Shown one piece after another: positions 17,942 to 51,614 of a stretch of DNA of 64,000 nt; position 1 is the first letter of the stretch; every line of letters starts with the position of its first letter. This DNA comes from Chitinophagales bacterium. Its GTDB lineage: Bacteria; Bacteroidota; Bacteroidia; Chitinophagales; CAIODY01. The DNA is taken from positions 62,001 through 126,000 of the forward strand of contig CANGEV010000006.1 in NCBI GenBank assembly GCA_947452995.1, in the 5' to 3' direction. The notes beneath the pieces were generated by a model, which was not told the DNA's origin, searched no databases, and was given only the letters and a program-made list of their open reading frames with translations. The position numbers and the translations under genes are program-made.

Positions 17942-17977
17942 TTACTATCTGCAGGAATTAATTCCTGCAGATAGTAA
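17942..17977. repeat. REP-like perfect palindrome, copy 1 (36 bp)
   Basis: Every base pairs around the centre between 17959 and 17960. The core GCAGGAATTAATTCCTGC (17951-17968) is shared with copy 4 and differs from copies 2 and 3 by one compensated G/C exchange. It lies 28 nt after the czcB-like gene and could also act as a terminator, with AAAA after it on the plus strand and no T-run. On the minus strand its flanks resemble those of copy 2 (GCGTT on one side, TAAGYGA on the other). Confidence 0.9.
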
Positions 17978-31093: not shown

Positions 31094-31125
31094 TTAGTAT
31101 GCACGAATTAATTCGTGCATACTAA
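31094..31125. repeat. REP-like perfect palindrome, copy 2 (32 bp)
   Basis: Perfect palindrome centred between 31109 and 31110 with core GCACGAATTAATTCGTGC. It lies in the gap between the convergent S9 peptidase and flippase genes, about 86 nt after the peptidase terminator. The left flank TTTTTTTGCGTTATCA resembles the left flank of copy 3, and both flanks resemble copy 1 read on the other strand. Confidence 0.9.
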
Positions 31126-48571: not shown

Positions 48572-48641
48572 AATATTTAGCACATCGGTGATCGGGAAAA
48601 CGCTGTACTTTTAATACAGTTGAAGAAGAGTGCTAAATATT
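48572..48641. repeat. Nested inverted repeat
   Basis: Outer arms AATATTTAGCAC (48572-48583) and GTGCTAAATATT (48630-48641) are perfectly complementary over 12 bp. Inside lies a smaller hairpin CTGTA (48603-48607) / TACAG (48615-48619). It could form an RNA or cruciform structure or mark an end of a decayed mobile element. Confidence 0.7.
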
Positions 48642-48697
48642 AGATGTTTAAATATTTCGATGAATTAGGATACTAAATATTTTAATTTTCCGTTATT

Positions 48698-48729
48698 ACA
48701 AAATGCACGAATTAATTCGTGCATTTTGT
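48698..48729. repeat. REP-like perfect palindrome, copy 3 (32 bp)
   Basis: Centred between 48713 and 48714, core GCACGAATTAATTCGTGC as in copy 2 but with outer arms ACAAAAT / ATTTTGT. Left flank TTTTCCGTTATT resembles the flank of copy 2. Confidence 0.9.
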
Positions 48730-48815
48730 GGAGCGAAATTTTTCTCAGAACAAAAATATATTACCAGATGTGAAATTTTTTCCAAAGTTGAGGCGTTTAC
48801 TTATTGTTCCCGATA

Positions 48816-48845
48816 CAATACGCAGGAATTAATTCCTGCGTATTG
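48816..48845. repeat. REP-like perfect palindrome, copy 4 (30 bp)
   Basis: Centred between 48830 and 48831, core GCAGGAATTAATTCCTGC as in copy 1, outer arms CAATAC / GTATTG. It ends 36 nt before the ATG of the IS200-like gene. Confidence 0.9.
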
Positions 48846-48881
48846 AGAATTAATTATTTTACAATCAACTTGAATCCACTT

Positions 48882-49256
48882 ATGCCTCGCTCGCAAAATA
48901 AAATATGGTTAGAAGTCACCTGGTACACTAAAGATAAAATACCAGTAATTAGAAAACACTTTTGTAAACTATTGCTCCGCTATTGCAAAAATGAATTTAT
49001 CGCTTTGGAATGTAAAGTCAAAACGATTACAGTCCGCCCAACACGTATGACGGTTATTTTTAAACCTAATCTTTCTATCCCAATAGCAGCTACCATTCAA
49101 CAAATCAAAGGAAGTTCCTCCTTTTATATCAATCATCAGCGTCTTTTGAAGTCTGAATTCGAATGGGAAAAAGCATATTCTATTACAAGTCCGCATGCTA
49201 GTGGAATTAAACAAAAAATCCCCGCTTCGTTAAAAGCAGAGACCTTTTCAGATTAA
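48882..49256 (+). CDS. Degenerate IS200-like (Y1 transposase / RAYT-type) protein lacking HUH and catalytic tyrosine
   Basis: From ATG 48882 the product is 124 residues. Its order of segments, KIWLEVTWYTKDKIPVIR, then AATIQQIKGSSSFYIN and FEWEKAYSITSP, follows Bacteroidota IS200/IS605-type Y1 transposases, where the corresponding segments are a WaTK.R.PvL strand, an HUH strand, an LKG.SS.wIN helix and FeWQ.eY..fSVS. Where the family has a His-hydrophobic-His motif this protein reads RPTRMTVIF, so both histidines are missing. The frame ends about 25 residues after the SVS-like segment, before the helix that carries the catalytic tyrosine. It is an intact reading frame, so either a decayed transposase or a repurposed DNA-hairpin-binding protein. 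It lies next to two REP-like palindromes. Confidence 0.75.
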   Translation: MPRSQNKIWLEVTWYTKDKIPVIRKHFCKLLLRYCKNEFIALECKVKTITVRPTRMTVIFKPNLSIPIAATIQQIKGSSSFYINHQRLLKSEFEWEKAYSITSPHASGIKQKIPASLKAETFSD

Positions 49257-49263
49257 CCACCTA

Positions 49264-50418
49264 TTATAAAGTTCCTCTTCGTGCTTGCTCAGCTTCGATA
49301 CTTTCAAACAATGCTTGGAAGTTACCTTTGCCAAACGACTTAGCACCTTTACGTTGAATAATTTCAAAGAAAATCGTCGGACGATCTTCGACTGGCTTCG
49401 TAAATATTTGAAGTAAATACCCTTCCTCGTCACGATCAACCATGATACCCCATTTCTTTAATTCTTCTAAGTCTTCTGCGATTTCACCAACACGATCTAC
49501 TACTGTATCGTAATAAGAGCCGGGCACATATAAGAATTCAACACCGCGCTTGCGCATTTCCGAAATTGTAAATACAATATCATCTGTCGCAACGGCTATA
49601 TGCTGACAGCCTGCCCCATGATAAAAATCTAAATACTCTTCGACCTGTGATTTTTTCTTTCCGGGAGCAGGTTCATTGATGGGAAACTTCACATAGCCAT
49701 TTCCATTCGTCATCACCTTACTCATTAAGGCCGTATATTCAGTTGAAATATCCTTATCATCAAACGTAACTAGATTAAAGAAGCCCATGGTCTCCGCATA
49801 AAATTTGCTCCATACATTCATCTCTCCAAGTCCGACATTACCGACCATGTGGTCGATATATTTCAAGCCTGTCCAGCCAGGATTGTACTCAGTTTTCCAA
49901 TCAACATAGCCGGGCATGAAAATACCTTTGTACTCTTTTCTTTCTACAAACACATGTACTGTATCGCCATACGTATGTATTCCAGACATTCGTATGATGC
50001 CATGCTCATCCTTAATTTCTTTCGGTTGCATATAGGCTCTTGCTCCGCGTTTGGTCGTTTGTTCGAATGCATCGTATGCGTCATTAACGCCTAGCGCAAT
50101 TACCTTGACACCATCACCATGCATACGAATGTGATGAGAAATTTCACTATCCGGATCCAACGGAGTAGTAAGTACCAAGCGTATCTTTCCTTGCTGTAAT
50201 ACATACGAAGTGCGATCTCTTGATCCTGTCTCTAAACCAGCGTAGGCAAGCTCTTGAAAACCGAAGGCCGTTTTATAATAATGTGCTGCTTGCTTCGCGT
50301 TGCCTACGTAAAGTTCTACGTAATCAGTTCCTAACAGGGGCAAGAAATCTTGTGCCGCTTGAAATATTTTTGTCGTTTCATTATAGTTGAAATTTTCAAC
50401 GTGTTTTAAATCTGACAT
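49264..50418 (-). CDS. hppD: 4-hydroxyphenylpyruvate dioxygenase
   Basis: From ATG 50418 (384 residues) the enzyme has the two vicinal-oxygen-chelate modules of HPPD. The iron ligands are in GLKYIDHMVGNV (His), GCQHIAVATDDI (His) and PTIFFEIIQRKG (Glu). It converts 4-hydroxyphenylpyruvate to homogentisate in tyrosine breakdown. An in-frame start at 50469 would lie inside the upstream gene and add a non-conserved extension, so ATG 50418 is preferred. It is 32 nt downstream of the homogentisate dioxygenase gene on the same strand. Confidence 0.97.
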   Translation of the reverse strand: MSDLKHVENFNYNETTKIFQAAQDFLPLLGTDYVELYVGNAKQAAHYYKTAFGFQELAYAGLETGSRDRTSYVLQQGKIRLVLTTPLDPDSEISHHIRMHGDGVKVIALGVNDAYDAFEQTTKRGARAYMQPKEIKDEHGIIRMSGIHTYGDTVHVFVERKEYKGIFMPGYVDWKTEYNPGWTGLKYIDHMVGNVGLGEMNVWSKFYAETMGFFNLVTFDDKDISTEYTALMSKVMTNGNGYVKFPINEPAPGKKKSQVEEYLDFYHGAGCQHIAVATDDIVFTISEMRKRGVEFLYVPGSYYDTVVDRVGEIAEDLEELKKWGIMVDRDEEGYLLQIFTKPVEDRPTIFFEIIQRKGAKSFGKGNFQALFESIEAEQARRGTL

Positions 50419-50450
50419 ATTTTTATATTTATTGAAAAAGAGTTTACTAA

Positions 50451-51614
50451 TTACTTGCCGCCAATCCAACTTTCGAAATAGGCTGTGATTTCCATGCCTA
50501 AAGCATCCTTCGTAATTTTAACAGGATTAAAAGGATCAATCATTACCGCTAATTCATTGGTTGCCTTTTGACCAATACTTCTTTCGATTGCCCCTGGATG
50601 TGGCCCGTGTGGAATACCGCCTGGATGTAAGGTTATTTGTCCTTTTTGAATATTATTGCGACTCATAAAATCACCATCCACATAATATAATAGTTCGTCA
50701 CTATCAATATTGCTATGATGATAAGGAGCTGGAATAGCGTCAGGATGGTAATCGTATAATCTTGGAACAAAAGAACATACCACAAAATTTTTGCCTTGGA
50801 ACGTTTGGTGTATTGGAGGAGGCATGTGAATGCGACCAGTTATTGGTTCGAAGTTGAAAATGGAGAACGCATAGGGATAACAACAACCATCATAGCCTAC
50901 CACATCAAACGGATGGTACTCATATACATAAGGGTATATCAATCCTCTCTTCTTTATTTTAATCACAAAATCCCCTTTCTCATCGATTGTCTGTAAGTTT
51001 TCAGGCAGACGCAAATCTCTTTCGCAGAAAGGTGCATGTTCTAAAAACTGACCATAATTATTGCGATATCTTGCAGGCGTCTCGATAGGCCCGAATGATT
51101 CTACCACTAACAAACGGTTTTGTTCAGTAGTGAATTCAATTTGGTAAACAGTTCCTCGAGGTACTATCAGGTAATCACCATAAGCGAATTTTAGTTCACC
51201 ATACGGACTCCGTAAAACACCACTCCCTTCGTGCACAAATAACATTTCATCCGCATCTGCATTTTTGAAGAAATAATCCTTCATCGATTTTTTTGGTGTG
51301 GCAATGCCAATACTTAAATCATCATTTACCATCATTATTTTTCTGCTCTCCAAATAATCATCGATAGGTGCTGCATTAAAGGTTAGATAACTGCGCGCCT
51401 GCAAATTGTCTTCAATGACTACTTCCGGACGAACTGAATATGCTTCGCCTTTTTGCTTAACAACCGTAGGTGGATGTAAGTGATAAACTAAGGATGAAAG
51501 ACCAGAAAAGCCCTCTGTACCAAACAATTCTTCATGATATAAATTTCCATTCTGCTGGCGAAATACAATATGTCTTTTTGCTGGGATATGTCCCACCTGA
51601 CGGTAAATAGGCAT
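50451..51614 (-). CDS. hmgA: Homogentisate 1,2-dioxygenase
   Basis: The 387-residue cupin enzyme has the family's N-terminal region (YRQVGHIPAKRHIVFRQ, EELFGTEGFSGLSSLVYHL) and the iron-site region (SNIDSDELLYYVDGDFMSR with Glu, and HPGGIPHGPHPGAIE with His). It is shorter than the eukaryotic enzyme (about 445 residues) but of usual size for the bacterial variant. It opens the homogentisate ring to maleylacetoacetate, the step after HppD. It is the first gene of the two-gene operon and divergent from ccoI. Confidence 0.95.
   Translation of the reverse strand: MPIYRQVGHIPAKRHIVFRQQNGNLYHEELFGTEGFSGLSSLVYHLHPPTVVKQKGEAYSVRPEVVIEDNLQARSYLTFNAAPIDDYLESRKIMMVNDDLSIGIATPKKSMKDYFFKNADADEMLFVHEGSGVLRSPYGELKFAYGDYLIVPRGTVYQIEFTTEQNRLLVVESFGPIETPARYRNNYGQFLEHAPFCERDLRLPENLQTIDEKGDFVIKIKKRGLIYPYVYEYHPFDVVGYDGCCYPYAFSIFNFEPITGRIHMPPPIHQTFQGKNFVVCSFVPRLYDYHPDAIPAPYHHSNIDSDELLYYVDGDFMSRNNIQKGQITLHPGGIPHGPHPGAIERSIGQKATNELAVMIDPFNPVKITKDALGMEITAYFESWIGGK

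Follow-up and report, generated by a model that had tools for sequence, protein, structure and literature searches.

Does a Y1 transposase-like protein that lacks its catalytic residues, encoded beside perfect palindromes, still act on these hairpins, or is it what remains of a mobile system? The question is raised by P0001, a frame located in a stretch of 64,000 nucleotides from a Chitinophagales bacterium, referred to below as the window. The original prediction saw in this frame either a protein domesticated for hairpin binding or what is left of such a protein. The frame and its convergent neighbor are arranged as follows.

48882-49256, + strand: P0001, Y1_Tnp-like frame of 124 residues without HUH or tyrosine helix (open reading frame, Pfam, and alignment with relatives)
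49213-49256, + strand: final ~14 codons of P0001 (about residues 111-124 plus the stop), non-transposase; the opposite strand is the hppD terminator
49213-49248, − strand: intrinsic hppD terminator with a stem of 16 bp and a loop of 4 nt; TTTTTT falls within the end of the stem (z = −4.5)
49264-50469, − strand: hppD (4-hydroxyphenylpyruvate dioxygenase; Pfam HPPD), whose terminator overlaps the P0001 frame

Identity of the frame and its intact relatives

In a profile search, P0001 matched Pfam Y1_Tnp (PF01797) at 31.1 bits (E = 2.9e-7), above the curated cut-off of 23, indicating that it belongs to the Y1_Tnp fold family by descent; its score against the NCBIfam IS200 equivalog profile was 17.7, below the cut-off of 55. 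Alignment with relatives placed TRMTVIF of P0001 at the site of DHVHCLF in intact proteins, so that both HUH histidines of an active Y1 transposase are substituted (TRMT for DHVH). Homology ends at residue 103-111, ahead of the YIKNQ helix, and the hppD terminator begins at about codon 111. Because the 3' end of the frame encloses this terminator, the final ~14 residues do not belong to the transposase, and P0001 has no catalytic tyrosine helix. The Y---Q--HH motif and the C-terminal domain, present in the nearest relatives (e.g., YIKNQKRHH in L042), are missing as well. Judged from its sequence, P0001 is catalytically dead and would be unable to cleave DNA because the HUH histidines have been lost. 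No stop codon or frameshift was found across 111 codons. Thus, the predicted IS200/RAYT-like protein and its predicted lack of HUH and of the tyrosine helix were both recovered.

The best matches to P0001 were 29 to 37% identical and formed a clade of about 144-residue proteins characterized by an MPHS..KIWIHA start, DH[VI]H, WQ, and YIKNQKxHH; the nearest intact homologues retain HUH and the Y---Q--HH helix. The intact clade fits TnpA_Y1 subclass 1.2 (PMC6006769), an assignment by motif and length only and not by the published tree. The similarities include DH[VI]H, WQ, Y---Q--HH, a length of about 144 to 148 residues, low copy number, and occurrence in Bacteroidota, and P0001 can be aligned up to the end of its homology. 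On the same sequence criteria, P0001 is a truncated relative of this subclass 1.2-like clade and not a member by motif, since it lacks HUH, the Y motif, and the C-terminal domain. The subclass is listed as having no REP structures and is described as generally lacking typical terminal secondary structures (PMC6006769), whereas many clade members studied here have long perfect palindromes.

A perfect palindrome with arms of at least 10 bases was present within 400 nt of 17 of the 23 clade members, versus 3 of 34 other Y1 genes (Fisher, 5e-7), and genomes with GTTTAAAC-type palindromes largely coincided with genomes carrying the clade (8/9 against 4/141; Fisher, 8e-10). The palindromes beside clade members have TTTAAA, ATTAAT, or CTTAAG cores, usually inside AGCCCACG...CGTGGGCT, and their outer motifs, about 25 to 30 nt off, are often TTGAAACGGTTT-like. 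Two loci (L176 and L184) carry CACGAATTAATTCGTG, 16 bases that also form the core of most palindromes in the genome of P0001, and L184 displays both core types at a single locus. Since 17 of the 23 sampled members adjoin perfect palindromes, some of them with CACGAATTAATTCGTG, the pairing of protein and palindrome is real, and the palindromes beside P0001 are of the kind that flanks intact members of its own lineage. Imperfect palindrome copies were found in some relatives (G024, G096, G097, and L111), and decayed clade members also lie beside palindromes, including L108, which has DHIQ and a stop codon, and L058, whose frame breaks near residue 30. The association of subclass 1.2 motifs with long symmetric palindromes across many Bacteroidota families provides a candidate substrate that is testable. 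Two variant arrangements were observed among the relatives. In L096 (1501-1884), the palindrome lies within the 3' end of the gene, whose 127-residue product has YIRNQKMHH and no C-terminal domain. L152 and L156, from Chitinophagaceae bacterium ES-bin-54, have very long perfect palindromes (arms of 29 and 34) in which repeated CACGAATT-type steps surround the GAATTAATTC core.

Palindromes at the locus and across the genome

The window contains only four perfect palindromes whose arms reach 9 bases or more, and the arms of these four were 15 to 18 bases long.

48698-48729, no strand: palindrome 1, perfect, arm of 16, ACAAAATGCACGAATTAATTCGTGCATTTTGT, ending 152 nt before the P0001 ATG
48668-48697, − strand: outward tail of palindrome 1, AATAACGG...TTTAGTATCC, of the type found beside other genomic copies
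48816-48845, no strand: palindrome 2, perfect, arm of 15, CAATACGCAGGAATTAATTCCTGCGTATTG, ending 36 nt before the P0001 ATG
17942-17977, no strand: dispersed palindrome of the same family, arm of 18, between two tandem genes, with an AACGC tail from 17979
31094-31125, no strand: dispersed palindrome of the same family, arm of 16, between convergent genes, with the tail TTTAGTA...GCGTTAT on the left

The two palindromes predicted upstream of the ATG and the two related ones predicted elsewhere in the window were therefore all found, the latter two sharing the GAATTAATTC core. The genome-wide count that the original prediction called for gave 35 GAATTAATTC sites, of which 22 form perfect palindromes whose arms are 15 bases or longer and 13 have arms no longer than 7. 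The 22 palindromes are far beyond chance, since the reversed-pattern control gave only 2 sites for the 10-base core and none for the 18-base pattern. Pairing of the arms was complete at positions 1 to 15 in all 22 copies, fell to 12/22 at position 16, and was close to chance beyond. The 22 copies displayed 18 arm versions, and their 330 pairs contained 55 two-sided and no one-sided differences from the consensus, a count of which the outer arm is the unbiased part, the set having been chosen by an exact 10-base core and arms of at least 11. A scan allowing up to three mismatches in the 18-base core returned 20 exact copies, 2 with symmetric double changes, 6 with three mismatches (versus 2 in the control), and none with a single mismatch. 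Because arm differences are two-sided and never one-sided, the palindromes are young, selected, or self-correcting; this symmetric diversification makes it testable whether selection, recent copying, or hairpin-templated repair has rendered the hairpins perfect.

The palindromes have the multicopy extragenic character of REP sequences, since none of the 22 lies within a sizeable open reading frame and a single copy overlaps a 72-residue unverified frame only. The GT[AG]G motif of REP sequences was not found at the 5' foot of the hairpins, whose flanks carry GCGTT instead in 20 of the 22 copies. Read on the other strand, this AACGC tail points outward 23 times and inward twice, and an A-run and TTTAGTA often come next. 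AACGC was rejected as a motif of intergenic DNA in general: coding and intergenic parts of the window contain it at similar density, yet beside palindromes it has this bias in orientation. All four genomic occurrences of the strict full tail pattern adjoin a palindrome, and the repeated unit seems to be a palindrome plus its tail, roughly 65 to 75 bp. A 12-nt inverted repeat (AATATTTAGCAC/GTGCTAAATATT) with a 46-nt spacer containing AACGC was also observed just left of the palindromes of the locus (48572-48641).

The palindrome family is genome-specific: this genome has 20 sites of the 18-base pattern, versus zero or one in each of 149 relatives, two congeners among them. One of these congeners, G002, contains a single palindrome (arm of 19) that bears an AACGC tail. 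Palindromes equally common in genomes lacking the protein, which had been named as a finding that would speak against the prediction, were thus not observed. A genome_contigs scan for the palindrome core returned 40 dispersed stretches whose arms vary, many of them likely to be chance or ordinary terminator-like hairpins; the same scan with P0001 returned no relative. No orthologue of P0001 was detected in the two congeners, in three other genomes of the family, or among 150 relatives, 398 genomes of the order, and 395 of the class (overlapping sets; about 900). This absence of conserved orthologues had been named in advance as evidence against domestication.

Proposed history of the locus

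The right-hand palindromes that are usual in relatives are absent from the P0001 locus. The hppD orthologue of G001 likewise has a terminator downstream, beyond which the sequence is unrelated. A nucleotide comparison with the empty site in congeners was dropped, because the hppD protein of G001 shows just 83% identity and the sequence downstream of the gene could not be aligned. A second HPPD-like gene (G000:C4:1131-2234; L092), 69% identical to the hppD beside P0001, was noted in the genome, and such a pair of paralogues is also found in G001, G003, G004, and G005.

We consider it probable that a "REPtron" has decayed at this locus and that P0001 is its left half, i.e., a subclass 1.2-like Y1 gene with its two left-flank palindromes. 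The gene would have lost its 3' end, including the tyrosine helix, the C-terminal domain, and the right-hand palindromes, and the frame would run into the hppD terminator because of this loss. We infer past mobility and the order of the truncation and of the catalytic loss. The intact ancestor would have recognized the folded single-stranded palindrome and mobilized the short palindrome-plus-tail unit, seeding copies mainly at the 3' ends of genes in this genome. TnpA_REP and IS200/IS605 enzymes bind a folded single strand and cleave near it via HUH and the tyrosine (PMC8266576); by analogy, the intact relatives of P0001 would act in the same manner.

Comparison with these systems reveals both similarities and differences. 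REPtrons of TnpA_REP (RAYT) groups 2 and 3 (PMC8266576, PMC2817692) similarly comprise a single Y1 gene flanked by palindromes, with copies dispersed between genes and a short conserved motif on one side of the hairpin. In contrast, the relatives studied here have Y---Q and not Y---NP, GTAG is absent from the foot, the palindromes are fully symmetric, and the GCGTT motif is located at a variable distance. IS200/IS605 insertion sequences share the Y1 transposase and subterminal hairpins, whereas no tnpB was seen beside P0001, the dispersed palindromes lack a transposase gene, and the intact relatives are in low copy number. The newer points are the palindromes of a subclass 1.2-like clade and the occurrence of pristine palindromes beside a dead enzyme.

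The positions of the copies offer another explanation, compatible with the decay of P0001, in which the palindromes are mainly hairpins useful to the host, such as bidirectional terminators, selected regardless of the fate of the transposase. Dispersed copies lie between convergent genes in 11 of 20 cases versus 7 of the 46 gene pairs of the window (p = 4e-5), an approximate count because gene context in the 900-base loci was deduced from open reading frames alone. The arms read AAAA-stem-TTTT and change only on both sides at once. However, a terminator needs neither the specific GAATTAATTC core nor a one-way AACGC tail, the tail runs on in A-runs and not T-runs, the palindromes are missing from congeners, and ordinary terminators exist in this genome, for example after hppD. 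We regard this explanation as possible, if doubtful.

Decay or retention of P0001

P0001 has kept 11 of the 19 family-invariant residues and lost 8, whereas other members have kept all or nearly all (Fisher, 8e-7, an optimistic value because related sequences are pooled). In the tree, its branch length was 2.58 versus a median of 0.32 (about 8 times), and this long branch was placed with modest support (80/78). It matches the consensus at 38 of 111 sites, corresponding to ~46% retention if a typical member matches about 82, which predicts that about 9 of the 19 invariant sites would be kept. Since the proportion lost is the same for invariant and variable residues, the sequence does not clearly indicate a preferential sparing of important sites. 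Most likely, the dead protein is a remnant, inert beside a still-intact set of hairpins, because it has no orthologue, has the hppD terminator in its 3' end, and has lost invariant residues proportionally. Of the two fates originally proposed, the remains are thus favored over the domesticated protein.

Besides the modest support for the placement of P0001 on the tree, two observations count against a remnant. Neutral drift to 46 to 58% identity would leave 111 codons free of stops 0.3 to 2% of the time, even without indels; the value rises to 4 to 15% at 70 to 80% identity, and part of the divergence of P0001 may predate the loss of function, which would raise the odds of an open frame. Moreover, if P0001 drifted neutrally by ~0.25 substitutions per site, equally old palindromes would be expected to hold about 165 substitutions in 660 bases, mostly one-sided, and the lack of one-sided changes in the 22 copies fits poorly with a long-dead parent enzyme unless the copies are selected or corrected. 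The palindromes may accordingly be younger than the decay, selected, or repaired from the hairpin template, or P0001 may have diverged under some function.

Such a function could be that of a domesticated protein that has ceased to cut DNA and instead binds the dispersed palindromes, in single-stranded or cruciform form for instance, and is retained for that purpose. The improbably open frame would fit this proposal, as would the persistence of the WYTK, IQQIKGSSSFYIN, and FEW segments and the restriction of the perfect palindromes to the sole genome with P0001. A domesticated protein would nevertheless be expected to have conserved orthologues under purifying selection, and none was found in the genus, family, order, and class samples; furthermore, the C-terminus has been replaced by terminator sequence, and the 11 invariant sites kept barely exceed the number expected. 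Domestication is therefore unlikely.

We find it a little harder still to accept that a different intact enzyme, assembled or not, now moves the palindromes and keeps them pristine. The search for a full-length Y1 protein with HUH elsewhere in the genome did find one, on contig C32 (14239-14583; L003, G000:C32:12739-14950, gene 1381-1857, − strand), with DHIH and YIQNQEKHH; pristine copies suggest recent spread, and a draft of 36 contigs may miss some repeats. However, the C32 protein belongs to another branch of the tree, its gene lies amid its own GC-rich repeats (CCCCATTGG...CCAATGGGG and CCCTGCCATGCGGCAGGG), no GAATTAATTC palindrome was found beside it, and the assembly is 99.96% complete. 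Least probable is a composite reading, in which a nuclease-dead subclass 1.2 relative is now the resident binder of about 22 species-specific perfect hairpins at gene 3' ends, each copy being kept paired by hairpin-templated correction or selection while the arms diversify. We retain the reading of P0001 as a remnant of a decayed REPtron. The C32 gene, which adjoins GC-rich hairpin arrays (CCCCATTGGCTTTAGTCCAATGGGG and CCCTGCCATGCGGCAGGG), is a second, separate repeat-associated transposase in this genome.
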